A DNA stretch of 64,000 nt from a virus: positions 186,001-250,000 of IMG/VR virus record IMGVR_UViG_3300032245_001746; one strand, 5' to 3'. Of this stretch, positions 249 through 64,000 are shown piece after piece; within the stretch, counting starts at the first letter, position 1, and every line of letters starts with the position of its first letter. The notes under the pieces were generated by a model. It did no database searches. It saw nothing but the letters and a program-made list of their open reading frames with translations, and had not been told where the DNA came from. A program made the position numbers and the translations under genes.

Positions 249-318
249 ATAGAATCATTTCTTTAAAAATACAAAATTATTGTACGAATACATCAAGGCT
301 TTTCAATAAATATTCAGT

Positions 319-1101
319 ATGAATTTTAAAGAATGGTTAATAAATGAAAGAAATAACGATGCATTTGAAATAAGAATGAAAAAAATAACTTCATTTTTAT
401 TAAAACTTTATTATGGAATTCAATTTAACGAAATTGCTGAAGTCCCACGTGAATTGTTTTCAGATAATAAATCTAGTAAATTATTTAATTGGATTAAAAG
501 ATTTGATCCAAATTTTAAATCTGCTGATGGACTAAAAATAAAATCTGGAACGGAAAGTTCCGTGTTGTTTTTAGGAAATGGTATTGTAATTAAATTCAAT
601 GATAATCCAAGTGAAGCCAATATCGCCTTTTTAATAAAGGGAGACCCAGATTTTCCAGTTTTAGATGTTGGCTCTTTTAATGATAACAATAATTTAATTT
701 ATGTAATAGCAATGAAAGAATTAAAAGTGTCTTTTAATGAATTGAAACAAGATGTTGAGTCAGCTTTGAATTTGGTCCATATGTTTCAATATAAATTAAA
801 AGAAATAAATAAATTAAATTCTAAAAAAGTTGTATCTGAATTTAATGAATATAATTTTTTTAGATGGCTATCTTCATATAAAGGAAGAGAAAATCGTTCG
901 TATCAAATATTGGTTTATTGTATACAACTAATAAAATTATATAATAAATTACATGATAAAACAGGATATTATTCTGCAAACGATATTCATGATGGAAATT
1001 TCGGTCTTACAGATAAAAACACATTGTCTACATTTGATTATGGTTATTCTGATTTAGTTGATCCAAAAAAATCCAAAAACATTGAAATCGATGGTGTTTA
1101 A
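319..1101 (+). CDS. kinase-like protein with capsid-targeting-like N-terminus
   Basis: This 260-residue protein looks like a protein-kinase/aminoglycoside-phosphotransferase fold. Residues 77-93 form a Gly-rich strand ending in a VIK lysine (K92), E99 follows in SEA, and YVIAMKEL (128-135) looks like a hinge. The catalytic loop NDIHDGNFG (221-229) supplies D222 and N227, and FDYG (239-242) takes the place of DFG. All expected catalytic positions are present, so it should be active; the substrate is unknown. The N-terminus MNFKEWLINE matches the short tag seen on other genes here and resembles the T4 internal-protein targeting sequence. It converges on the next gene with a 4-base overlap. The fold assignment is inferred from motifs only. 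Confidence 0.7.
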   Translation: MNFKEWLINERNNDAFEIRMKKITSFLLKLYYGIQFNEIAEVPRELFSDNKSSKLFNWIKRFDPNFKSADGLKIKSGTESSVLFLGNGIVIKFNDNPSEANIAFLIKGDPDFPVLDVGSFNDNNNLIYVIAMKELKVSFNELKQDVESALNLVHMFQYKLKEINKLNSKKVVSEFNEYNFFRWLSSYKGRENRSYQILVYCIQLIKLYNKLHDKTGYYSANDIHDGNFGLTDKNTLSTFDYGYSDLVDPKKSKNIEIDGV

Positions 1102-4618: not shown

Positions 4619-5545
4619 TTACTCTTCTTTTGCTAATCCAGATAATACTTTCATAGCTTTAAATTGTTCTTCACCAAATGATTCAAGTAATGTTGAATCT
4701 AAAGGTTCAGGCTTAACTGTTTTCTTATCAACAGTTTCAGCAATTACTTTTGTGTTTTCTGTAACAACTTCGCCTCTTCCAGTCGCACTCTTAGACTTTT
4801 CTGCTCTCACTTTTCTATTTTCTTCAATAAGGTCTTTGTTACTTTCTGCAATTAATTCTGCAGCTTGTTTTAGACCTTCATTAAGTTTATTATTTTCTGT
4901 TGACAATCTTATATTTTTAGCTTCCAACATTTTAACTCTTGATGTAGCTTCATCGATTGCTTTTTTCATATCATTAAATTTGCTTGATGTTGCCAATACT
5001 TTATCTTCATCACTGATGTAATCAGATACGCTTTCAACAATTTTATCAAGAACAATTTTGTGTTCAATCATGGAAGGATCAGACATGATGTCTCTTCTTG
5101 CCATTTCGTATATTTCTTTACCTTTAACTTTCAAGAATTCATCTACTTTTTCAACAATGTGTGATTTTGCTTCTTCAAATCTTCTTTCATATTCTTCATG
5201 AAGATCTGTTTCGATTGTTTCATTCTTTTTCTTTTCTTCACTTATTACTTCGTAAGCTTCTTTGTATCCTTCTTCAAGAGCTTCTTGATATTCAGCTTTT
5301 AAGACTTCCATTCTGTTTCTCAAATCAGAAATTATATTCCAAGCTTCTTGATAACCTTTTTCGCCAGTAGCTTCTGCATTTTTTACTTCTTGTGAAAGTT
5401 CTTCATATGCTTGTTCAAGATTTTTGTTGTATTCATTTTCTAATTCAGTTTTTGTTTCTTCTAACCAAGTAGAAATTGCAGCTTTAACATCGCTCATATT
5501 TTCTTCTGGTAACATTTTGCTTAATGCTTCAATTATCTTATCCAT
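4619..5545 (-). CDS. prohead core scaffold protein, T4 gp22-like
   Basis: This 308-residue protein is highly charged, Glu/Lys-rich and almost entirely helical, with long coiled-coil stretches (about 20-130 and 185-245). It sits exactly between protease and capsid, where T4-type phages encode the gp22 scaffold. Several (L/I)xE sites are visible in its C-terminal half, including LNE-G, IAE-S, IAE-T and LLE-S. This fits a core protein that the prohead protease destroys during maturation. Its start codon shares one base with the protease stop, so the two are probably translationally coupled. The identity rests on position and composition rather than on a sequence signature. Confidence 0.78.
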   Translation of the reverse strand: MDKIIEALSKMLPEENMSDVKAAISTWLEETKTELENEYNKNLEQAYEELSQEVKNAEATGEKGYQEAWNIISDLRNRMEVLKAEYQEALEEGYKEAYEVISEEKKKNETIETDLHEEYERRFEEAKSHIVEKVDEFLKVKGKEIYEMARRDIMSDPSMIEHKIVLDKIVESVSDYISDEDKVLATSSKFNDMKKAIDEATSRVKMLEAKNIRLSTENNKLNEGLKQAAELIAESNKDLIEENRKVRAEKSKSATGRGEVVTENTKVIAETVDKKTVKPEPLDSTLLESFGEEQFKAMKVLSGLAKEE

Positions 5546-6264
5546 TATTTTAACCTCTCTTTAATTTGATTTACTTGTGATTTTAAAATACTTTCAACAC
5601 AAGTTAGAAGAATGTTTTTATCGACAACTCTATCTATGCTTCGTGTTTCATTTTTTGTTAAATATTTTTCAACATTTTCAACATTTTCATTTTTTCCGCC
5701 TGTCACTTTCTTTTGAAATGCAGAATATGTACTTGGATCTGATACAATATCAAATGTAATTAGTTTATAGCTTTCGCCAATAACTAATATTCCATTTTCA
5801 TCAACTCTACCACTTCCAACACCTCTACTGCTTATTCCAATTCTTACTCCATCATTAATGAGACTACGTAATATTTTACCACATGGAGTGTTTAAGATTA
5901 CTCCTTCACCCATTAAGGTATTACCTTCCCACCACAACTTTGTAATTTTGTGTGAAACATCTTTAAAATGAATTATGGAATCTGAAGGGTGGTCCAACTC
6001 ACCAGTTAATCCACCTTCATTCATTGTTTTTTCAAGTTTCTTAACGTTCTCAGATAGTACACCTTTAGGGTACATTCTTTTGTTTTTATTAATAGCATCT
6101 GCTTCTTGAAATTTGCCTCTGAATTTCAAATGATTTACACCAGATTCTGATGATTCATGCAAATCCATTTCGTTAAGAAATCCATCAACTCCACCAAACA
6201 CAAGGCTTTCTTGACAAACAGTGTTTGGAGAGAAATTTGTATTTTCTAAATAAATTATATTCAT
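5545..6264 (-). CDS. prohead core protease, T4 gp21-like (peptidase U9 type)
   Basis: The 239-residue protein carries the gp21-type serine protease core. GELDHP places the catalytic His at residue 92, ISSRGVGSG places the Ser at 145-146, and FDIVSDPS (171-178) is the conserved strand with Asp. It also has the family's early segment NKNKRMYPKGVL. It should process the capsid, scaffold and any tagged internal proteins inside the prohead. The C-terminal 55 residues are charged and may be removed by self-cleavage, as in T4. SD-like AGGAGA precedes the start. It lies between the 600-aa head protein and the scaffold. Confidence 0.9.
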   Translation of the reverse strand: MNIIYLENTNFSPNTVCQESLVFGGVDGFLNEMDLHESSESGVNHLKFRGKFQEADAINKNKRMYPKGVLSENVKKLEKTMNEGGLTGELDHPSDSIIHFKDVSHKITKLWWEGNTLMGEGVILNTPCGKILRSLINDGVRIGISSRGVGSGRVDENGILVIGESYKLITFDIVSDPSTYSAFQKKVTGGKNENVENVEKYLTKNETRSIDRVVDKNILLTCVESILKSQVNQIKERLK

Positions 6265-8240: not shown

Positions 8241-8546
8241 ATGTTAACATTTAAAGATTATCTCAAAAAAGAAAGTGATCAACAATTATTATCAACAGAT
8301 AATGATGAAGAAAATTCTTTAAGACAAATAATAACTTTGGCTTGGAAAAAACATTTATCTAAAACTAAACAATTCTTGAAAGAATTATCAAAAATTGATC
8401 CGGAAATTAAACGTTTGTTTCAAAAATTAGATAATGAAAGTTCTGCTCCCAGTCTTGGATCTGATCAAAAAGATCAAAATTCAGACACATCTTTTATAAG
8501 ACCACCAGTTGCTGATACTGGTTATGGATTAACTGATGAAAATTAG
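8241..8546 (+). CDS. small helical protein with capsid-targeting-like N-terminus
   Basis: The product is 101 residues. It begins MLTFKDYLKKES, one of the best matches to the shared tag (compare T4 internal-protein MKTYQEFIAEA). A helical, Lys-rich middle and a Ser/Asp/Pro-rich unstructured tail follow. AAAGGA lies 7 bases before the start. It is a lone plus-strand gene inside the leftward head operon, overlapping the portal stop by 4 bases, a typical late-added single-gene insertion. No fold was recognised. A packaged internal protein is a plausible but untested role. Confidence 0.65.
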   Translation: MLTFKDYLKKESDQQLLSTDNDEENSLRQIITLAWKKHLSKTKQFLKELSKIDPEIKRLFQKLDNESSAPSLGSDQKDQNSDTSFIRPPVADTGYGLTDEN

Positions 8547-11053
8547 AATTCGCTATAATCTGGCTCCTCTGAATCTTGTTCTTTAGAATAATTATTAATA
8601 GCTAAATTATATTTTTTAATATCGTCTTCACTAGGTTCTTCTAAAGGCATCAATTCATTATTATCTTTTGCATTATTAGAATTATCTTTATCCATATTCA
8701 TACCTAATCCTTGTTGATCATTATCAACAGATGATTGATCATCTGTTGGTGTTGGCATAGGGTTAGGACCAGAACCATCTATTCCCATTTGTTCTTCGCT
8801 CGAATCTGGAACCCCTATTCCTAACAAGTCAGGATTTTGCATTAATATTTGTATTTTAGCTTCTTCCAAGAATTGATTTTTCAATCTTGAAATCATTTCT
8901 TGAGCATCTTTTTCACTATGTTTCATAACTTTTGTTAATATGTCCCAATCAGAATAAATTTTAGAACCTTTAAGGCTCGATGCATTATTAATTCTTGCAC
9001 TTTCGATTTCCATTCTTGCAAGTTCTCTCCAATCTGATGGAGGAGTTAACTTAATTACTAAGTCTTCATAAGTTTCTTCTGGAAAACCCATTAATCTTAA
9101 ATGAAGATCTGCAATTTGCCATAATCCATCTTCAACATGTTCTTGTATTCTTTCAATCATTCTTGCAACACGTGCATTTTGTGATGAAAGTGTCATTCTG
9201 GTAGCACCTGGATCTTCATTATTAAAATAATTTGGAGGAAAGTTTAATGCAACATATAATTTATTTCTGAAATAAACACTATCATCAATTTCTCCAAGAT
9301 TAGTAGCACCTGGTAAAGTATCAATTCTTGTTTGAGAATTAGGTCTAATAGGAATCCAATAATCTTCATCTGCAGAAGGTGACGACCATCTTTCATCTAA
9401 AGCGGTTGATCCGTCTCCAGGACGATTTACTATTTTCTTTTTTCTTAACAAATCTTGCATTCTTGATATAAAAGCTTCTTGTCTATGACCAGACATGTTA
9501 CCAGTATCAATATAAAACACTCTTCGTTCTGGTGCTCTAACAAGCCTGTAAACAATCATTGAATCTTCCATCAATCTTAGTTGATGTGCTGGTCCTCTTG
9601 CTGGTTCAATTAAAGATTGACCATATGGATAAAATGTTTTTCTATCATCTCCTAATTTAAAATGTATGATTTGTTCAGGAGTAAATCTTAAAGCTTTACT
9701 TTGAGATAATTCTAAATCAGTAGATTGAGTGACTGGTTTTTTTATTAAAGATTCATAATCTGGTCCTTCACTTGATTGTTGAAATTCTAAAAGTTTTCCT
9801 TTAGTCGTTTCAATTCTAAACATAGTTTCAGGGGCTAATTCTGCTACATTTAATATTCCATCTTTTGGATTTCCTAAATCTATTATCACTTCCCAAAAAA
9901 CATCACCATTAATGCACAATCTTTTAACTAGATTTGTTGCTTTTCTGTTTAAATTAAGCATTTTTCTGTGCAGAAAAAGAAAATCTAATTCTTTTTTTAC
10001 TTCTTTATTTTCGCATGTTATTTCTAATACATTTTTTTTATTATCTTTTTGGCAATTGTGAAATATAACAGATTTTCCGCAAAAATTTTCAAAATGTTTA
10101 ACTGAAAGATCATATACATCTATTTCTTTATAATCTATAATTCCAATTACTCTTCTTGTTTTTTCTTTTTTTGCAAGATATCTAATTTCTTTTACACAAA
10201 ATCCTTCATTTTTAAGCATGACACTTAATTGAGAAGCTTCAATATTCATTTCTGTGGCTACTGCATCGATTGATAAACCATTTGATAACAATCTAATTGC
10301 TTTGTTTATGGATTCATATTTTACTATGTCTTTATTTGTTTTCCATTCATCAATAAATTGTCTTTCGTGCATCCAGCCTTTATTGTGAGTAAATATTCTT
10401 GGAAATTGATTATTTTTAATTTCATTCATTTTTTGATTTGGTTCTATTCTATAAAATGGCATTAAAGTGCTTCCATACTTTAAGTCACCCGTTTGAACCC
10501 ATTGTTCATCACTTAATAAAACTCTATGATCTGGTGTTGCTATGAAAAAAGTACCATCATCAAGTATAACTTTTTTAGTCATAGCTTTTTTTACAAATCT
10601 TGGATCATACGCTACACCTAAAGCATAATCATTTTTTTCAAAATCCCAACAATAAACAAAAAATTCTTCATTTTTCTTGTTTTCAGCTAACCATTTTATT
10701 GTTTTCGCTCCATAGAATAATGTCTCTATTTCTTCATCACCAGAAATACATGCTTCATCTGATATAATGGTCATTACTTGTTCTATTTCTGGAACGCTTC
10801 TTAATCTTTCATACTCTTTGTATCTTGCTGATCTGTTACTAACCGTTGATAAATCGATTAAATCAGTTCCTATTTTCAAATGTTTTAAGTTGCCAGTTTC
10901 TCCAAAATAGCCATCATTTGATCTAATATTTGGTACTGCATCGGGACCTGATATACCAACACCAGTCTTATTTTTTGTTCTTTCAATTTCAGACTTTGGA
11001 TCATTAGTTAATGAATAAGTTAAAATTTTAAAAGCGTCATACCATGCTGCCAT
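8543..11053 (-). CDS. portal protein, T4 gp20-like, interrupted by an in-frame intein
   Basis: The precursor is 836 residues. Residues 102-333 are an intein; removing them leaves a 604-residue portal, close to the size of T4 gp20. Portal signatures include RSARYKEYERLRSVPEIEQV before the intein, LNRKATNLVKRLCINGDVFW after it, the FPYG-like IIHFKLGDD segment, APERRVFYIDTGNM, and the MTLSSQNARVARMIERIQ helix. The acidic, Asp/Asn-rich C-terminus (about 770-836) is probably flexible. The intein interrupts the conserved helix IISDEA-C, so splicing is needed for function. The portal forms the dodecameric DNA gate at one capsid vertex. It is encoded downstream of terL, as expected. Confidence 0.92.
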   Translation of the reverse strand: MAAWYDAFKILTYSLTNDPKSEIERTKNKTGVGISGPDAVPNIRSNDGYFGETGNLKHLKIGTDLIDLSTVSNRSARYKEYERLRSVPEIEQVMTIISDEACISGDEEIETLFYGAKTIKWLAENKKNEEFFVYCWDFEKNDYALGVAYDPRFVKKAMTKKVILDDGTFFIATPDHRVLLSDEQWVQTGDLKYGSTLMPFYRIEPNQKMNEIKNNQFPRIFTHNKGWMHERQFIDEWKTNKDIVKYESINKAIRLLSNGLSIDAVATEMNIEASQLSVMLKNEGFCVKEIRYLAKKEKTRRVIGIIDYKEIDVYDLSVKHFENFCGKSVIFHNCQKDNKKNVLEITCENKEVKKELDFLFLHRKMLNLNRKATNLVKRLCINGDVFWEVIIDLGNPKDGILNVAELAPETMFRIETTKGKLLEFQQSSEGPDYESLIKKPVTQSTDLELSQSKALRFTPEQIIHFKLGDDRKTFYPYGQSLIEPARGPAHQLRLMEDSMIVYRLVRAPERRVFYIDTGNMSGHRQEAFISRMQDLLRKKKIVNRPGDGSTALDERWSSPSADEDYWIPIRPNSQTRIDTLPGATNLGEIDDSVYFRNKLYVALNFPPNYFNNEDPGATRMTLSSQNARVARMIERIQEHVEDGLWQIADLHLRLMGFPEETYEDLVIKLTPPSDWRELARMEIESARINNASSLKGSKIYSDWDILTKVMKHSEKDAQEMISRLKNQFLEEAKIQILMQNPDLLGIGVPDSSEEQMGIDGSGPNPMPTPTDDQSSVDNDQQGLGMNMDKDNSNNAKDNNELMPLEEPSEDDIKKYNLAINNYSKEQDSEEPDYSEF
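10055..10750 (-). mobile_element. intein in the portal gene (232 aa, no clear active endonuclease)
   Basis: The element begins with C-ISGDEEI (block A, Cys1 = precursor residue 102). TPDHRVLL (173-180) is block B with its TxxH. The block F-like segment is VYDLSVKHFENF, and it ends VIFHN-C, with the terminal His-Asn at 332-333 and Cys+1 at 334. All residues needed for standard class 1 splicing are visible. Between the splicing halves lie about 90 residues. PRIFTHNKGWMHERQFI looks like the beginning of an HNH-type nuclease, and residues about 249-285 look like a helix-turn-helix. A full LAGLIDADG or HNH core is not apparent, so the homing function may be decayed or compact. Confidence 0.9.
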
Positions 11054-11690: not shown

Positions 11691-11979
11691 CATTTAAGCT
11701 ATCTATTTTTTTATTTTCTATATTTATTAATTTATCAATTGCTTCTAAAGTTTGTTTAGGATTTTTTAAATCAAATTTAACTTTATCTATTTTTTCTTGC
11801 CATTCTTGTTCTAATTTGGCTTTTACTTCATTTCTCTTATTTGATTTTTTATCTAAATTTTCTATATTTTTAATAACATTATTAATACTTTTTCTTATAT
11901 CGCTACAATTATTTTTGTTTGGAAGTTCTTTAATTGCTAAACTTAAATATTTAATTGTTTTTTCAAAAGGATTTTTCAT
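11671..11979 (-). CDS. small coiled-coil protein downstream of terminase
   Basis: This product of about 102 residues is Lys/Asn-rich and predicted helical, with heptad-like spacing across most of its length. The ATG at 11979 overlaps the terminase stop (TAATG), with AGGAG upstream. A GTG at 11985 is an alternative that would add two residues. Position between terL and portal suggests a packaging or portal accessory, but there is no sequence signature. A small-terminase assignment is not supported, because no helix-turn-helix is visible. Confidence 0.6.
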   Translation of the reverse strand: MKNPFEKTIKYLSLAIKELPNKNNCSDIRKSINNVIKNIENLDKKSNKRNEVKAKLEQEWQEKIDKVKFDLKNPKQTLEAIDKLINIENKKIDSLNATTIID

Positions 11980-13847
11980 TACCACCCAAACTCCTGTAAA
12001 ATTTTATTTTTTTTAATATATTTTTTATCATTAACATTTTGATCTACATAATAAATAGTATTCATAAAATCATTTTCACTTAAATCTTCATTATCATCAA
12101 ATAAATCATCTAAATCACTTTGAATTATTTCATTTTTTATTTCTTCAAATATTTTGTCTTTAAAAATACTTATTTTCTCCTCGGTGGCAGAGAAAAACCC
12201 TTGATGTTTTAAATCTCTTACATAACAAGCAATAGCTAAAGAAATAATTGAGTCATCATGACATCCTCTTCTAGCCTCTGGTTTCTTAGTGTTAACGTTA
12301 AATATAAAAGTATTTAATTCATTTACAAATCTTTTACTGTTTATCTTTATTGTTCCATTCATCAATTTTTGCTGTAAAGATTGAAGATATTTCGGTCTTG
12401 TTAACTTTGTAGTTTTAACTCCAGGATTTTTTGCTCCTTCTTCATAAAATAAATTTTCATAATTTATTTCATTATGTAATATGTTTAAAACTACAGCACC
12501 ATGTGTATTATTTTCGATTACTATTTCAGCAGTATTGTAAATAAGTCCAAGCTGATGCAGCAATAAAGCAAATTCATGAGGAGGAATGGAATTAGAATAA
12601 AATTCTGCAACTTGTTCTAAAGTATTAAGATCCAACACTTGAAATGCGCTATTATCACCAGCAGTCCCTATTCCTTCTGCACAGTCTGCTGATATTAAAT
12701 ACTCTCTACCAGATATTGGCGTTTTCCAAATCCATAATGCACCTTCATCTCCTTTAAATTTCTTTTCAGAATTTTTGTTTTTCCATTTTTCAAACATGAA
12801 TTTTTCTGGAAAACTATTATCAGTAATTTTCATCAAATTAGATATTACATCTGCTTTAGCCCAAGTTTCTCCACTTCCGATGAAACATCTTTCTACTTCT
12901 TGTGCCCAACCATCTTCTTGCAAAACAGATTTAGTTTCTTCTATCCATTTTGGATCATTATATAAAGGATGCTCCCAATAATCTATATTAATTATATTAA
13001 ATGGTCCCTTGCCAGATTCAGCTTCATGATAAGTTTCTTCGTACCAATTTCCTAATCCATTTACTGTGGATATAGCAGCACAACGTCCCCCTGTAGATAT
13101 AACTGGATATATTGCTTTCCATTCATCTTTCATATCTGGAATAAAAGCAGCCTCGTCAATTATCAATATACTAATAGATTTTCCACGACATGCTTCTATT
13201 GTATAACACCATAAAACCGAATTAGTTGTTTTAAACTGTTTTTCGTGTTCATTGAATTTATCTGTTTCTGGTTTCAACCAATTTGGTAAATATTCCACTG
13301 CAGTTTTAGCCATATCACCAGCAGCAATTGCTTCTCTGTCTGTTTTAGAAACAATCATAATTCTTTGACCAGAACCAAACATGCATTTCCATAATGCCCA
13401 AATTACAGATACGGTTGTCAATCCTCCTTGTCTAAATTTAGACAATATATTAAATCTATGATCATTATAACATTCTATTACTCTGTTTTGGTAAATATAT
13501 GGCATAAACCTTATTGTTCCAAACACAGGGTGGTTAATTTTCACATATTTTACACAAAAATACCAAAAATCATTAGTGCATCTTATTAATTCTTGTATTT
13601 GAGTTTGTATATCATAATTTTCTAAATCTTCTTTGGTTTCAGATAAATTAATATTTAATTGATTATCATTAAAATGATAATAATTAGAATATATTTCTTT
13701 CCATTCTTTTGTTTCTAAAATATCTTCAAGTTTGTTAAAAACTCTTTTTCCATTTTCGTCTTCTTGATCAATCCATTTTTCAAATACAATCTTAGGAACA
13801 GGTATTTGTTTTCTTACGGAAGAAACGTTTTCTACTTTGTTATTCAT
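11979..13847 (-). CDS. terL: terminase large subunit, T4 gp17-like
   Basis: The 622-residue DNA-packaging motor has an N-terminal ATPase and a C-terminal nuclease. The ATPase loop is KFRQGGLTTV (137-146), a variant Walker A in which the usual Lys before Thr is Leu. Walker B is ISILIIDEAAFI (225-236). The motif III region is STVNG (260-264). Nuclease acidic residues are D388 in ISADCAEG, E445 in VIENNTHG and D531/D532 in CHDDSIISLA. The C-terminal 60 residues are acidic and may contact the portal. It is the first gene of the leftward head operon, behind a 153-base divergent gap. Confidence 0.94.
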   Translation of the reverse strand: MNNKVENVSSVRKQIPVPKIVFEKWIDQEDENGKRVFNKLEDILETKEWKEIYSNYYHFNDNQLNINLSETKEDLENYDIQTQIQELIRCTNDFWYFCVKYVKINHPVFGTIRFMPYIYQNRVIECYNDHRFNILSKFRQGGLTTVSVIWALWKCMFGSGQRIMIVSKTDREAIAAGDMAKTAVEYLPNWLKPETDKFNEHEKQFKTTNSVLWCYTIEACRGKSISILIIDEAAFIPDMKDEWKAIYPVISTGGRCAAISTVNGLGNWYEETYHEAESGKGPFNIINIDYWEHPLYNDPKWIEETKSVLQEDGWAQEVERCFIGSGETWAKADVISNLMKITDNSFPEKFMFEKWKNKNSEKKFKGDEGALWIWKTPISGREYLISADCAEGIGTAGDNSAFQVLDLNTLEQVAEFYSNSIPPHEFALLLHQLGLIYNTAEIVIENNTHGAVVLNILHNEINYENLFYEEGAKNPGVKTTKLTRPKYLQSLQQKLMNGTIKINSKRFVNELNTFIFNVNTKKPEARRGCHDDSIISLAIACYVRDLKHQGFFSATEEKISIFKDKIFEEIKNEIIQSDLDDLFDDNEDLSENDFMNTIYYVDQNVNDKKYIKKNKILQEFGW

Positions 13848-23249: not shown

Positions 23250-23408
23250 TTATTTACACATTTTGCATTTACATCTTAAGGATTTGCATTTATTGCAACA
23301 TTTCATTTCTTTCTTTGAATTATTAGATTTATCTGCAATTTCTTCATTTTTTATAAATTTTAATAAATCTTCATCTGTTTTCTTTAAAAATTCTAAAAAA
23401 GTCTTCAT
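23250..23408 (-). CDS. 52-aa Cys-rich protein with capsid-targeting-like N-terminus
   Basis: This 52-residue gene begins MKTFLEFLKKTDE, the closest match in the window to the T4 internal-protein tag MKTYQEFIAEA. It ends in a Lys/Cys tail with seven cysteines in about 18 residues (CCNKC, CKCKMC), likely to bind metal. AAAGGAATTTACAC precedes the start. It fits exactly between the primase stop (23247) and the gene at 23459. Small size makes it easy to miss; the tag match is the main support. Confidence 0.6.
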   Translation of the reverse strand: MKTFLEFLKKTDEDLLKFIKNEEIADKSNNSKKEMKCCNKCKSLRCKCKMCK

Positions 23409-23844: not shown

Positions 23845-26800
23845 ATGATAATATTAAAAAAATCTTTCAAAGATTATTTAAATTTAAAGAAAAATGATTC
23901 AAATTTATCTTTTGAAGAAGAGTATGAAAATAAATTAAAGCAAAGCTTAATGGAAATGCTTTTTTCTGAAATGCCTGTTCCACCTATTTCATTTAAAGAT
24001 AAAGATGGAAATTACAGTGATGAAAAGCACCATGCTGCTATAAATGCGCCAATTTTCATGGATGAAGATGATATTTTATACTTGTATCAATTCCCGCCAG
24101 AATTTTGGACTCACGCTTTGGCATATAGATATGTAGATGCTCTTTATGAAGCAAAAGTAAATCCTAATTATAACGATATTCAAAATATTAAACTTGGTGA
24201 TGGAAGTAGAAGTGTAATATTTAGAAATAGAAACACTTTTGCTAAAAAACTTGTTGATAAAATTGAAAGAACGGTTGATGTTGATCATTTTATGAACGCT
24301 AAATCAAATGATCCTGATTTAAAAAAACAATATGCAGCTAATTTTGAAAAATACGGAAAAGAAGGTAAGGACTTAGGTGGATTATTCGGTACAGATATGT
24401 CTTCTCCAGTAAGAAGAGCAGGAACAAATTTATGGGTAGCAAAAGGAATGATGGCACCAGATGAAGCATCTATAAAAAGAAATGTTTCTCAATGGATGTC
24501 TGCTTCTTCTCATGGTATTTTAGAAGATCCTGACGATTATACAGGAAATCCTTTTTATATGAAATTAGGTGGCGGCAGAGGTATGTCTAAAGGTAAAAGA
24601 TATTTATCTGTTAGTTATGATTATGCCGCAAAATTATTACAAAAGATGAAATCTGTTGGAGCTAAACCATTTAATTTGCACAGATTTCCTACGTCTCCTA
24701 AAGATGCTGTTGTGTCTTGGGATGATGTTTCATATGATAATAAAAAAAATGCTTCTGGATTTTTTTTAGAAAAAGGTCAACCAAAACATTCTAAAATTCC
24801 TATTCTTTTTCCTGGAAAAGCTTTAGATTCAAATTCAAATACGCATTATGAAGCATTGCAATCATCATTGGGTAAAGCAGAAGATGTTTCTTTGTCTGAT
24901 GTTAAAGATGTTGATTCTTTGGGTGTTGAAATATCAAAATTAAATGATGAACTTAGCCAAACTAAAGACAGAGCAAGAAAAGTAGAAATTAACAAAGAAT
25001 TGAAAAATTTGGTTTCATTAGTTCCATTTATGCAATTTGTTAAGGATTCTGGAAAAACTCCTAAATCTGAAATAGAATTAGAAGATCTTAAAAAACTATA
25101 TTCTAGAAAAGTTCATGATGAAATGAAATTAGTTGGTAAAAACGCAAAAAAATATGATGCGTATGATTGGGCTTTTCATCAATATAACCAAAACAGAAAA
25201 GATCATGATCCTCTTGAGGTAGGAATGGCAAATCCAGTTGCTGTAGGTGAATATGAACATGAAAGACTTATGAATAAGGCTACCACATATGGCAGTTATT
25301 TTCCAAATAGACAAAATAAAACAACTTTAGTGGGTGGTCAGGGAGACTGGGAGGATTTTTTCCATCAATGGTTTGGAATAACAGATGGTTTTAAAAACAA
25401 ATATCATTTAGAATCAAAAGAAATAAATGAACTTGAAAGAGAAGTTGATAAATATGTTTTTAAAATTTCTGATAAATTATCCAATGATCCAAAAGTTTTA
25501 TCTTTTCTTGGACTAAACAAACAAGACGCTAAAATGGCTTTAACCTCGTCATCTTCTCTTGCAAAAGCTATGAGAGGATCTCAAGGAACAATGCCAAAAT
25601 CTTTAGAAATTGCTCTTGATGAGCTTAAAACCATAGAAAGTGAAATAAAAAATTTAGACGAAGCATCATCAACAGGATTTAATAAAAGTGATATTTTAAG
25701 TGGCGTTGAACTTGCTGTTTCTAAAACTATACATCCTATTGTTAAGATGATATTAAACAATAATAAATTAGAAATAGCTTGGAATGCAGAAAACCACATT
25801 AAGAAAAATATGGGAATGCCAGTTTTCAAAAAACTCATGAATTCAATGAAGTCTGGTAATTTAGGCACAATACAAAAACACAAGTTGTTTTTGGATGCAA
25901 AACAACAAATTAAATCTTATGCTCAAAATTATGCTGTAACTATTTCCCAACTTCCTTTTGGAAATGCAGATTCAGATCAAGGAAGTATCAGCATTGCAAG
26001 TAGAAGAAAAAGAGATGGTTCCACATCCCTTGGTAACTCCAGCTTTAGTGCGTTTGGAGGAGAAGATGGTGGTGACGAATTAGATTCAATACATGGTAGA
26101 ATGACTAGTCAGTTAAAAAGAGTTTCTGACATGAGTGATGATAATGATGATAAATTTTCTATAAGTGATACAGGATCAGATGATGAAAAAATAGCACCTA
26201 ATTCTGCAACTCATGGAGATTCAAGAGTTAATCAAATGAAAGATATTGAGATAATAGATGATATAGCTCAATCTTATTTTGGTGATTTAGGCAAAAATGC
26301 TTACAGAAAACATAGATCAAACAGCGATTCTACAGGAGTTGTTGGGCATAATGTTAACGTAATTCGTACACAAATTGAAAGAGAAGCAAAAACTTTGGCT
26401 GATAAATCTGCATCCAATGCAAAAATAGGTGCTGATAATTTGAAAGAAAAGTTAAGTTCTATTAGTCAACAAGAAATAGACATGATTAAAAAGATAAACG
26501 ATTCTTTAGCATTATATAACTTTTTTGTTACAATGTATAATAAAAAGAAAATTGGACCACCAGAAAATAGTCATGCTTGGGCTAAACAAAGAATGGAATC
26601 TGTTTTAAAGAGACATGGATCTTACTCTATGAATGATTTATCGCCTGATTCTATTCGTTATTCTCAAGAAACAATTGATCAAAAAGCATCTAAATTATAT
26701 GATTCATTAGAAGCATCATATGAACCAGATCAATTAGATATTGAAATTCAAAAAATTGTTAATAAAGCATCGACAGATGAGGAAAAACAATTTGCTGATA

Positions 26801-27171
26801 GATTACTTGTATTACATGGAAAAGAACGAAAATTTTCTCATGATAAAGGTGACGGACCAGTTGCGTTGAAAGGTGGATTAAAAGATACTTTAGCAAAAAT
26901 AGCTGCAAAGAAATCAAATTCGCAAGCTGTAAAACCTACATCACCTTCAGTAGACAATAGTGCCGATGATGTTGAAGCTATGTTTAAAGATAGAATGAAA
27001 AACAGAAGAGCAACTATACCAACAACTAATGTGTCTACTCCAAATCCAACACCACCTTCAACTCCAACATTAAAACCTAATGTTCCAAATCCAACAAATT
27101 CAACACCTTCAACACAACCACCGATTTCTGCGGCGGATAGACTAAGAAGATTAAGAAAAAACAATGAATAA
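23845..27171 (+). CDS. 1108-aa protein with capsid-targeting-like N-terminus, probable internal virion protein
   Basis: This very long protein has no recognised catalytic domain. SFKDYLNLKK at residues 7-16 matches the shared N-terminal tag. The first third contains conserved-looking segments such as PPEFWTHALAYRYVDALYEA. The central part is helical and charged (coiled coil about 350-400), and a Ser/Asp-rich acidic block follows at about 715-790. The C-terminus is Pro/Thr/Ser-rich (about 1055-1095) and ends AADRLRRLRKNNE. TAAGGAATT precedes the start, and a strong terminator follows. A capsid-internal or ejected protein is a reasonable inference; no membrane segment is visible. Confidence 0.65.
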   Translation: MIILKKSFKDYLNLKKNDSNLSFEEEYENKLKQSLMEMLFSEMPVPPISFKDKDGNYSDEKHHAAINAPIFMDEDDILYLYQFPPEFWTHALAYRYVDALYEAKVNPNYNDIQNIKLGDGSRSVIFRNRNTFAKKLVDKIERTVDVDHFMNAKSNDPDLKKQYAANFEKYGKEGKDLGGLFGTDMSSPVRRAGTNLWVAKGMMAPDEASIKRNVSQWMSASSHGILEDPDDYTGNPFYMKLGGGRGMSKGKRYLSVSYDYAAKLLQKMKSVGAKPFNLHRFPTSPKDAVVSWDDVSYDNKKNASGFFLEKGQPKHSKIPILFPGKALDSNSNTHYEALQSSLGKAEDVSLSDVKDVDSLGVEISKLNDELSQTKDRARKVEINKELKNLVSLVPFMQFVKDSGKTPKSEIELEDLKKLYSRKVHDEMKLVGKNAKKYDAYDWAFHQYNQNRKDHDPLEVGMANPVAVGEYEHERLMNKATTYGSYFPNRQNKTTLVGGQGDWEDFFHQWFGITDGFKNKYHLESKEINELEREVDKYVFKISDKLSNDPKVLSFLGLNKQDAKMALTSSSSLAKAMRGSQGTMPKSLEIALDELKTIESEIKNLDEASSTGFNKSDILSGVELAVSKTIHPIVKMILNNNKLEIAWNAENHIKKNMGMPVFKKLMNSMKSGNLGTIQKHKLFLDAKQQIKSYAQNYAVTISQLPFGNADSDQGSISIASRRKRDGSTSLGNSSFSAFGGEDGGDELDSIHGRMTSQLKRVSDMSDDNDDKFSISDTGSDDEKIAPNSATHGDSRVNQMKDIEIIDDIAQSYFGDLGKNAYRKHRSNSDSTGVVGHNVNVIRTQIEREAKTLADKSASNAKIGADNLKEKLSSISQQEIDMIKKINDSLALYNFFVTMYNKKKIGPPENSHAWAKQRMESVLKRHGSYSMNDLSPDSIRYSQETIDQKASKLYDSLEASYEPDQLDIEIQKIVNKASTDEEKQFADRLLVLHGKERKFSHDKGDGPVALKGGLKDTLAKIAAKKSNSQAVKPTSPSVDNSADDVEAMFKDRMKNRRATIPTTNVSTPNPTPPSTPTLKPNVPNPTNSTPSTQPPISAADRLRRLRKNNE

Positions 27172-32369: not shown

Positions 32370-32749
32370 ATAAAATTTATATTTATTTAGCTAATAGAAG
32401 CAAAAATGGAATAAAATTACTTGCTAATATAACATTAAGTCAAGTAGTAATGCCTACTAGAATTAAAGATGTTTCAAGTTTAGGATTAAATTCGGAATTA
32501 GAATTTAAAATAAATTCTATTTTAGAAAAAGAAAAAATGAATTGGGAATTGTTTTTGGAATCTGCCGCTTCATATAAAGATTTAAAAATCTCTCTTAAAA
32601 ATAGAGGCTATTTTAATCTTCCTATGTTTACTAATTATTTGGTGGTAGAAGATAATAGTTTGGTGGTTAATAAAATACAATCTAAATACAGTTTAAATTT
32701 AAAAAATGGTAGCTTTTTACCATCTATGATTAGAAAAACAAAAAATTAA
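32366..32749 (+). CDS. unknown 127-aa protein
   Basis: No family was recognised. The product begins with a short hydrophobic strand (IYIYLANRS) and is otherwise basic and mixed alpha/beta, with LNSELEFKINSILEKEKMNW in the middle and a basic end. It is translationally coupled to the 47-aa gene and converges on the minus-strand gene with a 4-base overlap. The small plus-strand pair is an island within the leftward tail region. Confidence 0.5.
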   Translation: MNKIYIYLANRSKNGIKLLANITLSQVVMPTRIKDVSSLGLNSELEFKINSILEKEKMNWELFLESAASYKDLKISLKNRGYFNLPMFTNYLVVEDNSLVVNKIQSKYSLNLKNGSFLPSMIRKTKN

Positions 32750-33057
32750 ATTTCATCAACATATGATTTGTTGATATACAACTGTCCTGATTCTACTTCG
32801 ATTAAAAATTGATCTTCTTCACAATCAATTATTACACCACCATTTTTAAAAAAATCTAAACAAACTTCTTTCTCATTTCCTTCATCTACTTGTGATTTGA
32901 AAATCAATTTTTTCAATCCAATTCTTGATTGAACTTCTTTTCCAATATATTCTTCACTTTCAATGATATTTTCTTCAGTTTGTTGTTTAAACATATTTTT
33001 ATCACTCTCTTCAATCCATTTTTTAAAATCATCTAAAGATAATATGTTCCTATTCAT
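32746..33057 (-). CDS. small acidic protein with tag-like N-terminus
   Basis: The product is about 103 residues from ATG 33057, which has GGAG 6 bases upstream; an ATG at 33078 lies within the preceding gene. It opens MNRNILSLDDFKKWIEES, where DFKKWIEE resembles the tag seen on the putative internal proteins, though it is preceded by seven extra residues. The remainder is beta-rich and acidic, with CLDFFKNGGVIIDCEEDQF, like a small barrel. Function unknown. Confidence 0.55.
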   Translation of the reverse strand: MNRNILSLDDFKKWIEESDKNMFKQQTEENIIESEEYIGKEVQSRIGLKKLIFKSQVDEGNEKEVCLDFFKNGGVIIDCEEDQFLIEVESGQLYINKSYVDEI

Positions 33058-57162: not shown

Positions 57163-57642
57163 TTATAACATTTGACTAGTAATGCTTGTTGAATAATTTG
57201 GAGATGTAGTTATTTTGCCACCATTTAATTCTATTTCATCTGCTTCTAGCGTTTTTTCTGCTTTATAACTTGTTTTGAAAAATGTTTTGAATTCTTTTCC
57301 AATAATTTTAATTATCTTTTCTCCAGCTTTTTCTTCATCTCCATAATCCGAAATTAAATCGTTATATATTTCTTCTATATCTAACAAATACGCACTTCCA
57401 TAAGGATGAGTATCATGTTCTTTTTGAATTCTATAAGCAATTATATCTCCTATTTTGTATATTCTTACACCACCAAATGATAAATCATCGTTATTTGAAT
57501 ATACAAAAATATAAGGATCTTCTTTTTTTAAATGAGATTCAACTGTAAAACCATTAGATTCAAGAACTTTTTTTATAGTTCTTAAATGATACATTCCCAT
57601 TCTTCCTTGTTGATCAACAAATTCTCTAAATGTTTTTCTCAT
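57163..57642 (-). CDS. unknown protein with tag-like N-terminus
   Basis: The 159-residue product begins MRKTFREFVDQQG, which fits the shared tag (T-F-x-E-F-V) and resembles T4 internal-protein N-termini. The rest is mixed alpha/beta, with DPYIFVYSNNDDLSFGGVRI and EEKAGEKIIKIIGKEFK. No family was recognised. The gene is in the tail operon, 4 bases upstream of the next gene, so co-expression with tape-measure genes is expected. Confidence 0.58.
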   Translation of the reverse strand: MRKTFREFVDQQGRMGMYHLRTIKKVLESNGFTVESHLKKEDPYIFVYSNNDDLSFGGVRIYKIGDIIAYRIQKEHDTHPYGSAYLLDIEEIYNDLISDYGDEEKAGEKIIKIIGKEFKTFFKTSYKAEKTLEADEIELNGGKITTSPNYSTSITSQML

Positions 57643-59971: not shown

Positions 59972-60541
59972 ATGAATTTTAAAGAATGGCTCTATTCTGA
60001 ATATGAAGCAGATCTGGATTATGATGTTTCTGATCCAAATTCCATTAAATTACCAACTAGAAGGACTCTTTTACACAGAGTTGCTGGCGATGCTATGGAT
60101 GGTTTTGGTAATATATTTTCAAAACGAATGGGTGCAGGTATGCCCTCTAAAGCAGGAGAGTTTACAACAAAAGATCCAATTCAAACATTTAATGATGGAC
60201 AATATCTTGTTGTTGTTGTAGATGAGCCGTATGATCCAAATAATCATGATGCAAGTGATCAAAATTTAAGAAAATTAATGAATCAAGCTATCAAAAAGAT
60301 TGAAAATGATCAAGAAACTGCACAAGCATTTATTGCAAGTAGGGCTGCAATTTATAATTATTCTGAAAAAGGAAGAAATGCCGAAACTAAATATATTGTA
60401 AGAGATGGTCAGCACTTTATTAGATTTACATTTAGATTTAAGATGAATGTAACCCCAGGACACAATTATAGTATGTCAGATCCAATAAGAAAAGTGAATG
60501 ACGATCGTGATGGAAATAAATCAAATTGGGATATTAATTAG
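59972..60541 (+). CDS. unknown protein with capsid-targeting-like N-terminus
   Basis: The 189-residue product begins MNFKEWLYSEYE, nearly identical at its start to the kinase-like protein at 319 (MNFKEWLINE). The body is mixed, with DAMDGFGNIFSKRMGAG, QYLVVVVDEPYDPN and a beta-rich FIRFTFRFKMNVTPGHNY near the end. No family was recognised. AAAGGAAAATA precedes the start, and 8 bases separate it from the CCA-adding-type enzyme. A virion-internal role is inferred from the tag. Confidence 0.62.
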   Translation: MNFKEWLYSEYEADLDYDVSDPNSIKLPTRRTLLHRVAGDAMDGFGNIFSKRMGAGMPSKAGEFTTKDPIQTFNDGQYLVVVVDEPYDPNNHDASDQNLRKLMNQAIKKIENDQETAQAFIASRAAIYNYSEKGRNAETKYIVRDGQHFIRFTFRFKMNVTPGHNYSMSDPIRKVNDDRDGNKSNWDIN

Positions 60542-60549
60542 GAATAAAT

Positions 60550-62043
60550 ATGTTAACATTTAAAAAATATGTACAATTATTAGAAAATTCAGAAGAATCT
60601 CCAAATAAAGACTGGAGAAAATCATTCACTAAATTAGAAAAAGGATTTGTTCCTCCTTCTAAAATGAGACCAATTATTGACGCTTTTCTTAAAAGTGGCG
60701 ATATCGTATTGACAAATGATGCTTCCAAAAAAGTAACTATGCCAAAAAAAACATTATTTCTTGTAGGAGGACCAGTAAGAGATTTTCTTCTTAATAAAAC
60801 AATTAAAGATTATGATTTAGCAACTAATGCGACTCCAGAACAAATTGCACAAATTCTTTCAACAGCAGGATTCAAAATGGCTGATGAAAGAAGTGGAAAA
60901 TCTGGAAAACCTATGAATCTTAATTTCAAACCAGAATTAGCAGAATCAGGAGAAAAAAGATATTGGTTCGTTAAAGGAAGAGATGCAAGTCAAGATGGAA
61001 AAGTATTCGTAATATCTGCTGTAGTTGATAAAGAAGAATTTGAAATAGCAACATTTAGAAAAGATGCAAAAGTTACAGATGGAGCGGCTGAAGTTGATTT
61101 TGTTGATAATCCAGTTGAAGATGCATCCAGAAGAGATCTTACAATTAATTCACTGTATATCGAATTATCTAAATCAGATGGACCAAATGATAAATTATAT
61201 GATCCAACTGGTAAAGGTTATCATGATGTAAGAAATGGAGTTGTGAGAACTGTAGGAAAAGCTTCTGATCGATTTTCTGAAGACAAATTAAGAATTTTAA
61301 GAGCAATTAGATTTCACGCTAGATTTGGAAGTGGATCTAAAATGGATGATGATATTGAAAATTCAATTCCATCATTTAAACATCTAGATGGTGTTGCACT
61401 CGAAAGAATTAAAGATGAATTTATAAAAGGATTATTGCATCCAGATGTAGATACTAAAAAATATTTAGATATTTATAAAAGAACTGGATTGTTAAATAAA
61501 GTATTTCCAAATCTTAGTTTTCAAAATTTTGAAACAATTCCAGAACAATTTAAACAAAAGAAAGATAAACCATTAGCGTTAGCTTGGATTTTACAAAATA
61601 ACTCTATTAATGATGTAAATATAGCACTATCTCCATCAAGAAATGTATCTGGTGAAGATAAACAAACTGGATGGACCGTAGAAGAAAAACGTGCAGTTTT
61701 GTTTTTACTTAAACTTAAATCATTTGATCCACAACAATTGTCTGAATTTCTAAGATCAAGAAATTCTACAATGCTTACAGATCAACAAATTAGAGATTGG
61801 GTGGAATTATTTAAACATAATAATAAACATTCAAGACCAACTTGGGCAAAACAAATTTTAACACTAGCTTCATATAAACCAAGTGTTAAATGGGACGATA
61901 TAGTAAATTCAGGTCAAGATAATTGTGAAAATTGTCAAGGTTGTCCTATGTGTGATCAAGGAAAAATAAGACCAGATCAAAGAAGTAGATTAATAGCAAA
62001 TCGTGAAATAAATAATTTCACAAAATTAATTGACATGTCATGA
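60550..62043 (+). CDS. CCA-adding/poly(A) polymerase-type nucleotidyltransferase with capsid-targeting-like N-terminus
   Basis: The 497-residue enzyme is a class II tRNA nucleotidyltransferase-type protein. FLVGGPVRDFLLNKTIKDYD holds LVGG (71-74) and the catalytic D87/D89, SRRDLTINSLY (193-203) is the second motif, and FSEDKLRILRAIRFHARFG (242-260) the third. The first 65 residues are extra and start with MLTFKKYVQLLENS, the shared tag with an LLE-N site. The C-terminus adds a C-x2-C-x2-C-x2-C motif (459-468). It may add CCA to tRNA or nucleotides to another RNA. No tRNA gene lies in the window. It overlaps the next gene by 4 bases. Confidence 0.85.
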   Translation: MLTFKKYVQLLENSEESPNKDWRKSFTKLEKGFVPPSKMRPIIDAFLKSGDIVLTNDASKKVTMPKKTLFLVGGPVRDFLLNKTIKDYDLATNATPEQIAQILSTAGFKMADERSGKSGKPMNLNFKPELAESGEKRYWFVKGRDASQDGKVFVISAVVDKEEFEIATFRKDAKVTDGAAEVDFVDNPVEDASRRDLTINSLYIELSKSDGPNDKLYDPTGKGYHDVRNGVVRTVGKASDRFSEDKLRILRAIRFHARFGSGSKMDDDIENSIPSFKHLDGVALERIKDEFIKGLLHPDVDTKKYLDIYKRTGLLNKVFPNLSFQNFETIPEQFKQKKDKPLALAWILQNNSINDVNIALSPSRNVSGEDKQTGWTVEEKRAVLFLLKLKSFDPQQLSEFLRSRNSTMLTDQQIRDWVELFKHNNKHSRPTWAKQILTLASYKPSVKWDDIVNSGQDNCENCQGCPMCDQGKIRPDQRSRLIANREINNFTKLIDMS

Positions 62044-62531
62044 TTACTTTTAAAGAATGGAACGAAAACAGAAAACCCTACGTTTATCAAACCACTTATT
62101 TGATAAACGTAGATTCTATTTTTCAATCAAAATTATTTCCTGCTGCTGGTCAATCGGCTTGGTCTAAACCCGACATCACACGTCATTCTAAAAAAGGTGT
62201 GTTTTTTGCTGATAATCCAAATGGAATAAAATATTGGGTTTGGAATTTGATAGAACAATCATATAACAATTCAGATTATCCATATGAAGAAAATTTGATT
62301 CCAATTATATTAAAATTTAAACTAAACATAAATAGTTGGGAAAAAGATGATTTGGGAAATTTAGAAACACAAGGAAATTTCTTTACTAAAAGGTCTGTAA
62401 ATCCTTTAGGAATAATGTTGTGGAATGGATCGGAATGGAATTCAGACCCAGAAGATGCTTATAATATAAAAAACTATTTTTCTGAAGAAGATTATTCAGA
62501 AGACAATTATCCATATCCGAAAGTTTGGTAA
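62040..62531 (+). CDS. tagged protein, possibly ADP-ribosyltransferase-like
   Basis: The 163-residue product begins MITFKEWNENR, another copy of the tag. The body shows YQTTYLINVDSIFQSKLFPA, then HSKKGVFFADNPNGIKYWVW and IPIILKFKL. This order recalls bacterial ART/RES-like small domains (strand, helix, loop, G-x-(F/Y)-(F/L)-(A/T)-D-(N/D)-P). The catalytic residues cannot be fixed with certainty, so this is a fold guess. ATGA overlap couples it to the nucleotidyltransferase. A perfect 14-bp hairpin lies in the first codons. Confidence 0.55.
   Translation: MITFKEWNENRKPYVYQTTYLINVDSIFQSKLFPAAGQSAWSKPDITRHSKKGVFFADNPNGIKYWVWNLIEQSYNNSDYPYEENLIPIILKFKLNINSWEKDDLGNLETQGNFFTKRSVNPLGIMLWNGSEWNSDPEDAYNIKNYFSEEDYSEDNYPYPKVW
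62078..62112. repeat. perfect 14-bp inverted repeat inside the ART-like gene
   Basis: CTACGTTTATCAAA (62078-62091) pairs with TTTGATAAACGTAG (62099-62112) around a 7-base loop, 38 bases after the start codon. Stem length, loop size and position closely match the hairpin inside the homing-endonuclease gene (2921-2953). Confidence 0.65.
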
Positions 62532-62533
62532 CT

Positions 62534-64000
62534 ATGAATATAGAATTTAAAAATTTATTATCAGAAATAGATTATGAAGATCATGAAGTAATTCATAATT
62601 GGATGAAAGAAAACCCCAATAAATTGGCTTTTACCAATCTTTTTAAAGATAAAATTAGAGTGATATTACCACCAACAAATCAAAAAGATGCTATTAATAT
62701 ACTTGAAAAAATTAAAAATGCAGGATATAAAATAGACTTTAATGCCGGATTAGTGTCTAAAGATAGACCAATCAAACTTGGAAGATTTGTTTTAAATAAT
62801 GACATGTTTACTGATAAAGAAAAAAATTGGTGGAATAAATCTCCAAATCCTATAAAACAACTTGAATCTGTTGATAAAATTAAAAATTATTCAATTATAC
62901 TTTCGCGTAGTCCAATAGATGTTCTTAGAATGTCTGATCACAAAGGTTTAAGCTCATGCCACTCACCAGGTGATGATTATTTTAAATGTGCAATTGCTGA
63001 AGCAAAAGGTGAAGGCGCAATTGCATATTTAGTTAATAAACATGATTTAGATCTTCTTGGTGAAGATGAATTGCAAGACAAAGAAATATTTCAAGACTCA
63101 GATAGAAATATTAAAGGTATAAGACCATTAGCTAGAATAAGATTAAGAAGATTTGTTAACAAAAAAGAAGGATATGAATTCGCAGTACCAGAAATCAGAA
63201 CTTATGGAAATAAAGATTTCAATGGATTTTACGATACAATTAGAACTTGGTTATTAGATAAACAAAAAGAAAATACTGAAGGAAAAAGAGTTAGAATGAA
63301 AGATTTTGTTCTAACTGGAGGTACATATTCAGACACATCTGCATCAACATTATTTAATAAAATGTTTGATGATAAATTAGATTCTGGTAATGTTGAATAT
63401 GGCGGAAGTCAAGATGGATATGTTGATATTATTACACAATATAAAAACGAATTACAACAAATTGAAGAAAGATATCCATCAATTAATTGTATATCATATG
63501 ATACACAAGTCCCAGCAGAAGGTTATGATGATAATAATACAGTTTACATTTCTTTCAATGTTTATTTTAAAATAAATCTTCCAGAATATTTATTTAACAA
63601 AGAATCTTTTAAAAAATTTCAAATTAATAATAAACAAGTAAATTATTATTTGCAGTCGGAATTAGGATTCAATTATTTAGAACAAGTAGAAATGGATGAA
63701 AAAGATTATTCTATTAGTTGTTGGTATTCTAATGTTTATGATGATCCACAAAGAATTGAAGAATATCTTTCTTCATTAAATGAAACTTTAAATGAAAATT
63801 ATAATAAATTTTCTTATTCTTTATATAGAAAATTACAAGAGCTAGGAATAGCTATAAATAATGATACAAATAATCTTGTTAATCACAAAGAAGATCAAAA
63901 TTATCCTTTAACTAATTTTGAATGGGAAGTGGATAAAAAAGAACAATTAAGAATAATGGTAATTGATCCAATAAAACTAGGAGTATTAGATAAAGAAAAT
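62534..64000 (+). CDS. large unknown protein, 3' end cut by window edge
   Basis: The frame is open from the ATG at 62534 to the window edge, giving at least 489 residues. It starts MNIEFKNLLSEIDYEDHE, a looser match to the tag. IILSRSPIDVLRMSDHKGLSSCHSPGDD contains a segment seen in other large-phage proteins (S-R-x-P-x-D-x-L-R-M-S near a Ser-Cys pair), with GAIAYLVNKHDL following. Function is unknown. It starts 2 bases after the previous stop, so it belongs to the same unit as the tagged enzymes. Confidence 0.7.
   Translation, partial: MNIEFKNLLSEIDYEDHEVIHNWMKENPNKLAFTNLFKDKIRVILPPTNQKDAINILEKIKNAGYKIDFNAGLVSKDRPIKLGRFVLNNDMFTDKEKNWWNKSPNPIKQLESVDKIKNYSIILSRSPIDVLRMSDHKGLSSCHSPGDDYFKCAIAEAKGEGAIAYLVNKHDLDLLGEDELQDKEIFQDSDRNIKGIRPLARIRLRRFVNKKEGYEFAVPEIRTYGNKDFNGFYDTIRTWLLDKQKENTEGKRVRMKDFVLTGGTYSDTSASTLFNKMFDDKLDSGNVEYGGSQDGYVDIITQYKNELQQIEERYPSINCISYDTQVPAEGYDDNNTVYISFNVYFKINLPEYLFNKESFKKFQINNKQVNYYLQSELGFNYLEQVEMDEKDYSISCWYSNVYDDPQRIEEYLSSLNETLNENYNKFSYSLYRKLQELGIAINNDTNNLVNHKEDQNYPLTNFEWEVDKKEQLRIMVIDPIKLGVLDKEN

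Follow-up and report, generated by a model that had tools for sequence, protein, structure and literature searches.

A shared N-terminal tag resembling the T4 capsid-targeting sequence on many otherwise unrelated proteins of an uncultivated huge phage

Tagged genes in the window

The stretch of DNA analysed here, hereafter the window, spans 64,000 nucleotides and corresponds to bases 186,001-250,000 of a 319,857-bp IMG/VR record of a T4-type virus of bacteria. It ends in a cluster of four genes, packed head to tail on the plus strand at 59972-64000, whose products share an N-terminal tag of the pattern F-[KR]-x-[W/F/Y]-[L/I/F]...E. The whole 319,857-bp record was read, and a simple script called 480 genes in it; positions are those of the window unless marked as genome positions. 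Tags were scored with a position weight matrix (PWM) trained only on three other huge phages, namely LR756511 (an 'uncultured phage' of 595 kb and the closest named record, with a capsid protein 67% identical), G008 (IMGVR 3300023174_000040) and G005 (IMGVR 3300046517_002304, first 400 kb).

The first gene of the cluster (59972..60541) encodes a cargo candidate of 189 aa that starts MNFKEWLYSE, scores 16.4 bits and has neither a Pfam or PHROG match nor a relative in IMG/VR. The second (60550..62043, 497 aa, MLTFKKYVQLLE) is tRNA nucleotidyltransferase/poly(A)-polymerase-like, being matched by PF01743 (E 3.2e-27) and phrog_2244 (E 1.4e-46), and its catalytic head starts about 66 residues in. 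A nucleotidyltransferase had been named among the cargo in the original prediction and was confirmed as a tagged protein; its orthologs in LR756511 (MRTTFLEFMGLKEA) and G008 (two copies, MKFKNWLLKEEE and MGKFQDYVLYKENN) are tag-like at the start as well. The third gene (62040..62531) encodes a candidate of 163 aa with the N-terminus MITFKEWNEN (PWM 10.5), for which profile searches (Pfam, PHROG, PADLOC) returned no family. It had been described as possibly ADP-ribosyltransferase (ART)-like, an assignment that we rejected as the fold found no profile support and the structure model was uninformative (pLDDT 31); in a relative, one tagged protein shows a weak PARP match. Exact peptide patterns found no IMG/VR relatives of the first and third proteins or of the major capsid protein. 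The fourth gene runs from 62534 to the window end at 64000 and on to genome base 250,390, encoding 618 aa behind the looser tag MNIEFKNLLSE, and the tag of its G008 ortholog (651 aa, E 2e-47) is the canonical MNFKNWLEQNINE.

Further tagged genes lie elsewhere in the window. A protein of 260 aa encoded at 319..1101 (+) begins MNFKEWLINE and has an untagged paralog, 41% identical, at genome 183,528-184,244 (-), outside the window; alignment of the two showed that only one copy has the tag, as an N-terminal extension of 16 residues. Kinase-like cargo had been proposed, and for this protein the tag stood and the kinase match was weak (ABC1, E 0.006, below cut-off). A tagged protein of 101 aa (MLTFKDYLKKESD, PWM 11.8) is encoded at 8241..8546 (+), a lone plus-strand gene between the portal gene and the next head gene. 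The largest tagged product of the window, 1108 aa with no Pfam family (MIILKKSFKDYLNLKK, PWM 9.9), is encoded at 23845..27171 (+), and a weak relative of it in LR756511 is tagged too (MLLKFKEFLD). The 52-aa product of 23250..23408 (-) is a loose match whose N-terminus, MKTFLEFLKKTDED, was read directly. A conserved 159-aa gene among the tail genes (57163..57642, -) has the tag-like N-terminus MRKTFREFVDQQ and orthologs in LR756511, G005 and G008; no [LI]xE site follows its aromatic pair, and the protein is possibly structural and not cargo. Likewise, the tag-like N-terminus SLDDFKKWIEESDK of a conserved 103-aa gene among the structural genes (32746..33057, -), absent from the original list, may not be a packaging tag. 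All nine N-termini of that list were present in open reading frames at the positions and on the strands given there.

Enrichment and inheritance of the tag

In 30 of the 480 genes a match to F[KR]x[WYF] starts at one of the first 10 residues, and each later 10-residue bin holds 0-5 genes. Column-wise permutation of the N-termini gave a mean of 5.7 and a maximum of 14 in 1000 permutations, compared with 31 observed, and shuffling within each N-terminus gave similar values; the motif is thus not equally frequent in random N-termini. The matrix from other phages placed the tag on 38 of 456 genes of this genome with 2.3 expected, which extends the original list to many more genes. Leave-one-out matrices recovered 45 of 1069 genes in LR756511 (5.3 expected), 30 of 457 in G008 (2.3) and 29 of 711 in G005 (3.6). 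Matches in other phages numbered 5 in Stenotrophomonas phage RAS14, 1 in Microcystis phage Mel-JY01, 2 in Bacillus phage SP-15 and 2 in T4. A gapped-triplet search supplied with no motif ranked FK.W highest in this genome, F..W.E in LR756511 and F..WL in G008. A scan of IMG/VR for ATGAAYTTYAARGARTGG returned at least 118 stretches, some of them true gene starts, often beside further tagged genes, and others not N-terminal. The portal (MAAWYDAFKIF) and the genes at genome 8165, 68974, 281569, 17595 and 201813 were dropped as loose matches and non-tags. The primase-like gene 22222-23247 was dropped because its orthologs have a native N-terminus. A GIY-YIG protein of record L113 that starts MNFKEW is not a clear tag bearer, as its Pfam domain begins already at residue 6.

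Tag status was found to be inherited together with the gene. Ortholog pairs between this phage and LR756511 were established from residue 17 onward, leaving out the first 16 residues, and the tag was present in both members of 7 pairs, in this phage only in 5, in the relative only in 4 and in neither in 123 (Fisher p 1.3e-6). At least one of the single-sided cases is a misplaced start (genome 6038), whose ortholog contains MDFREFYKL. Among 55 tagged proteins of three relatives the only invariant column is the tag Phe, and recognizable domains start shortly behind the tag, at residue 14 for NUDIX, 16 for an NIF phosphatase and 23 for a C39 peptidase. The same boundary was seen in a conserved tagged family present in at least six phages (A7; L004:5277-6029 (+), 250 aa). 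Its tag residues vary and its first invariant column is Glu12, at the predicted cut, while in the AlphaFold model (mean pLDDT 85.5) only residues 1-14 fall below 50 and the fold begins at residue 15. A fold search with this model gave no PDB match at E<=0.001 and two uncharacterised viral proteins only. The tag is therefore a real, modular and co-inherited element carried by about 35-40 otherwise unrelated proteins of this phage.

Targeting residues, head genes and promoters

In T4 the first 10 residues of the internal protein IPIII suffice for targeting, with residues 4 and 7 (the Tyr and Phe of MKTYQEFIAE) as its main determinants; processing depends on residues 8 and 10, and gp21 cuts behind L/I-X-E (PMC9026906). 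The aromatic pair of the tag, three residues apart, is the same pair at the same spacing as IPIII residues 4 and 7. In 137 of the 138 tags selected by the model, which itself selects for aromatics, the second position is aromatic, and the first is F or Y in 137 of 138. When trained on huge-phage tags with F or Y in the first position, a choice made with T4 in mind, the matrix ranked gp61.1, IPI, IPII and IPIII 1-4 of 263 T4 genes, and the probability of so placing the three internal proteins by chance is 1.3e-6. The start MKTYQEFIAEA attributed to IPI-IPIII in the original prediction applies to IPII and IPIII, which begin MKTYQEFIAE, and not to IPI, which begins MKTFKEFTST. T4 gene 61.1 (NC_000866 18,966-19,130 (-)) encodes a hypothetical protein of 54 aa starting MKTFKEFIKED; as it outscores IPI-III in the tag model, gp61.1 may be an unrecognised T4 internal protein.

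A [hydrophobic]xE site follows the tag within 8 residues in 21 of 36 proteins, compared with 8.9 after shuffling, and none of 2000 shuffles reached 21. The excess of gp21-type sites also occurs in G008 and G005 and is weaker in LR756511. The matching protease was correctly foreseen: a gp21-type prohead protease (Peptidase S77) is encoded at 5545..6264 (-), where PF03420 matches with E 4.5e-27 at window 5704-6171 and phrog_207, head maturation protease, with E 5e-51, and it bears FLNE close to its own N-terminus. It is neighboured by a major capsid protein gene of gp23 type (MCP; 3137..4582, -; phrog_138, E 4e-86), a candidate scaffold or core gene in the gp22 position between the two (4619..5545, -), whose product is charged, likely helical and of no clear family, and a gp20-type portal gene (8543..11053, -; phrog_213, E 8e-69), with the gp17-type large terminase subunit further on (11979..13847, -; phrog_2, E 2e-37). 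The PF03420 protease was also found in LR756511, G002, G004, G005, G007, G008 and G017, and an S77 protease was seen in 8 of 22 IMG/VR records with the tag motif, several of which are fragments. LR756511 has a second, diverged S77 protease match at 242,621-242,989 (-).

Tagged genes also differ from untagged ones in their upstream regions. A box like TATAAATA, the T4 late promoter type, lies within 60 nt upstream of 22 of 36 tagged and 88 of 396 untagged genes (p 2e-6), and it ends 2-7 nt before the start in 12 of 38 tagged and 10 of 418 untagged genes (p 7e-9). The close box recurs in the relatives (LR756511, 10 of 45 vs 19 of 1024, p 7e-8; G008, p 2e-4; G005, p 0.02). It typically stands 3-5 nt before the start codon, as in TATAAATA-N4-ATG, at many tagged genes (e.g. 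genome 45,277; 73,200; 251,158). Upstream of the gene at 319 the box AATAAATA (305..312, +) matches TATAAATA in 7 of 8 positions and ends 6 nt before the start codon. A close box was rejected as a general T4 trait, since T4 boxes peak about 20-28 nt upstream. T4 late transcripts begin a few nt behind the box, so messages from close boxes would be leaderless; this suggests leaderless late mRNAs in this phage group. Among the untagged genes with a close box are that for the LR756511 capsid protein and long genes of late type, and the arrangement thus marks a virion class and not the tag alone. The tagged genes would be expressed late, judging by the promoter-like box only. The cluster at 59972-64000 is probably an operon, given its tight packing and the lack of a close box on its own genes.

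No DNA-level relatives were matched among named phages. Outside the window the genome encodes a tmRNA with the tag GETVRLAA (genome 29,678-30,043, -) and 13 tRNAs at genome 82.6-84.9 kb, mostly for Leu, Ser, Tyr and Phe, with more tRNAs at 264-318 kb. At genome 105,400-108,983 (+) a probable interrupted gene shows a ribonucleotide-reductase-like frame, then a GIY-YIG-like one and an intein-like end (VYDITVEDNHNFYANDI). Genome 278-314 kb holds many short paralogs (MKLSEIIAKYSS..., MKIGFKATYDF...), all of them encoded on one strand, a probable early-gene expansion.

Packaged cargo as the probable explanation

We consider the shared N-terminus to be a T4-type capsid-targeting sequence (CTS) that would be used genome-wide, with the tagged enzymes delivered at infection, and give this reading a probability of about 0.83. 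We infer loading, cleavage, injection and cargo function for this uncultivated phage from its sequence. Late in infection, tagged genes would be transcribed from T4-late-type promoters, often close enough to the start to yield leaderless mRNA. The first 10-15 residues, a short helix with the aromatic pair three apart, would bind the scaffold core of the prohead, and the gp21-type protease (window 5545-6264) would cut behind the following [LI]xE to free the mature protein in the head. This cargo would then be ejected with the DNA into the next host and act before phage gene expression.

The predicted cargo is a replaceable set of a nucleotidyltransferase, a UvrD helicase, GNAT, an HAD phosphatase, zincin-like and Acb1-like proteins and unknowns, which suggests roles in counter-defence and host take-over. 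Tags elsewhere in the genome are carried by a UvrD-type helicase with a topoisomerase zinc finger, a GNAT acetyltransferase, an HAD phosphatase of RNA-repair type and a nucleotidyltransferase-like protein (phrog_24943). A tagged protein of 152 aa (L002:1480-1938 (+)), conserved and tagged in LR756511, has an HExxH motif (HEVAHAVW) and a sub-threshold match to a zincin peptidase family. An Acb1-like 2H phosphoesterase (genome 128,712-129,236, -) carries the full tag MLDFKNWVVLNE and matches Pfam Acb1 with E 1.8e-8, over cut-off. Its H55-V-T57 and H129-C-T131 align with both HxT motifs of T4 Acb1, the anti-CBASS nuclease of gene 57B; it matches the general 2'-5' RNA ligase family better (E 1e-11) and could be another 2H phosphoesterase. 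The T4 gene itself (NC_000866 73,952-74,410 (-)) adjoins ipI, begins MMEFKDF and ranks 6 of 263 in the tag model. Tagged proteins of the relatives include a C39 peptidase, an NIF phosphatase, a SNF2-type helicase, NUDIX and a PARP-like protein below cut-off. PADLOC gave no matches for ten cargo proteins. Of the 46 tagged candidates of this phage, 22 have no match in eight other complete or partial genomes, which is what accessory counter-defence genes would be expected to show. A family of small peptides, tagged and with GLYPxxYGGxGxYPP as their core, recurs across these phages (genome 97,006-97,197 (-) in L006; G008 56,441 and 218,787; L155; L176; L134; LR756511 71,311 and 502,604).

The likeness might have arisen by chance or from N-terminal composition bias, as the genome has 28% GC and AT-rich codons such as ATG AAT TTT AAA are common at starts. 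Its probability is negligible, since permutations and shuffles fall short of the observed tag count and orthologs retain the tag; a relative of 42% GC keeps the tag residues with TTC, AAG and CGN/AGN codons, on which account a nucleotide-level signal after ATG was also rejected. The permutation and cross-genome tests refute both chance and composition. Alternatively, the tag could be a CTS that mostly marks components of the prohead core or of head assembly, destined to be degraded or to remain in the head, and not effectors delivered to the host; this is unlikely. Some tagged proteins are short, acidic or of low complexity, as core proteins can be (e.g. genome 30959, 152526, 171434), and the conserved genes at 57163 and 32746 lie amid structural ones, but many other tagged proteins are enzymes or enzyme-like with no head-building role, and the tagged set varies between relatives in the manner of accessory genes. 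That the peptide only resembles a CTS and serves to sort or dock proteins at some other phage structure, for instance a replication site, a membrane or a host factor, appears very unlikely. A short aromatic helix could bind many partners, and scaffold binding by this one is our proposal; the match, however, covers both the T4 targeting residues and the cleavage site, and the promoter class also serves virion genes, among them that for the LR756511 major capsid protein.

Several observations weigh against capsid targeting. With training on F only, IPI alone ranked high (2) and IPII and IPIII fell to 22-23. T4 Alt, which is also packaged, was not recognised (rank 162 of 263), its N-terminus being MELITELFDE. 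An obvious [LI]xE site is lacking in 15 of the 36 tagged proteins. RAS14, Mel-JY01 and SP-15 have a gp21-type protease yet few or no tags, which also favours a docking peptide, and tag expansion in every gp21-bearing phage was accordingly rejected. The tag-bearing 436-kb record G001 has no PF03420 match and may be incomplete or have a divergent protease. Finally, the gene starts are the output of a simple caller.

Capsid targeting by the tag would have its closest parallel in T4 IPI-III, in which a short N-terminal peptide with an aromatic pair three apart precedes a gp21-type site, the bodies are unrelated and an S77 protease is present (PMC3012670, PMC12373910). The T-even internal proteins have only the tag in common (PMC3012670), each of Ip1-3 blocks a GmrSD enzyme (PMC12373910), and the T4 CTS has been suggested as a general route by which T4-like phages incorporate proteins (PMC9026906). 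The internal proteins are, however, three in T4 and at least 10 over its relatives (PMC12373910), and are small non-enzymatic restriction inhibitors, whereas about 35-40 genes per genome are tagged here, with products of up to 1108 aa and many enzyme-like. The tag of this phage also has mostly F as first and often W as second aromatic, and the box stands 3-5 nt before the start in place of about 20-28 nt in T4. T4 Alt, an ADP-ribosyltransferase, is likewise an enzyme that travels in the head and is ejected to take over the host (PMC9026906), but its start is not of the tag motif. The phiKZ and SPN3US ejection proteins form a large head-packaged, ejected set processed behind Glu by a gp21-related protease (PMC5694885); their propeptides are mostly longer than 100 residues and share no short common tag, whereas the tag here has 10-15 residues; propeptides of such length (>100 aa) are not seen here, where known domains start at residues 14-23 and the A7 family folds from 15. 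In the P1 Dar system, an N-terminal signal of DarB is enough to bring a foreign protein into the capsid (PMC9024508), but the Dar proteins have no consensus and a T4-type scaffold is absent. Phages and conjugative elements also have polyvalent proteins, whose injected enzyme domains include ART, GNAT and enzymes that degrade signals (summarised in PMC7824862); these are single giant multidomain chains and not separate genes with a tag each.

The core of the original prediction, a T4-type targeting tag on many unrelated proteins of a phage with a gp21-type protease, was supported by the sequence tests, and the claim of a new type of phage cargo system was borne out in part. The principle is that of the known T4 CTS (PMC9026906), whereas the scale is about tenfold and enzyme-loaded; what is new is this scale, the enzymes among the tagged proteins, the distribution of the tag across uncultivated huge phages and the putatively leaderless arrangement of the late promoters. 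In a survey of 224 jumbo phages a capsid-targeting sequence is not mentioned (PMC7824862), and no description of a genome-wide CTS set in huge phages was found in the open-access literature. It seems moderately likely that an uncultivated clade of huge T4-type phages has made the CTS peptide a genome-wide export code, in which any gene gaining a tag of 10-15 residues and a leaderless late promoter would become virion cargo, each particle bringing dozens of ready-made enzymes, among them an Acb1-like anti-CBASS nuclease and enzymes of RNA/DNA-repair type, into the host before phage expression. The tag would then be a sequence rule predicting virion cargo straight from the genomes of ungrown phages. 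Dozens of 'hypothetical' genes per genome would become candidate injected effectors or counter-defence proteins for the opening minutes of infection, which are difficult to study, and a natural, transferable loading tag of 10-15 residues, taken from very large capsids, would be useful as a component for protein delivery.

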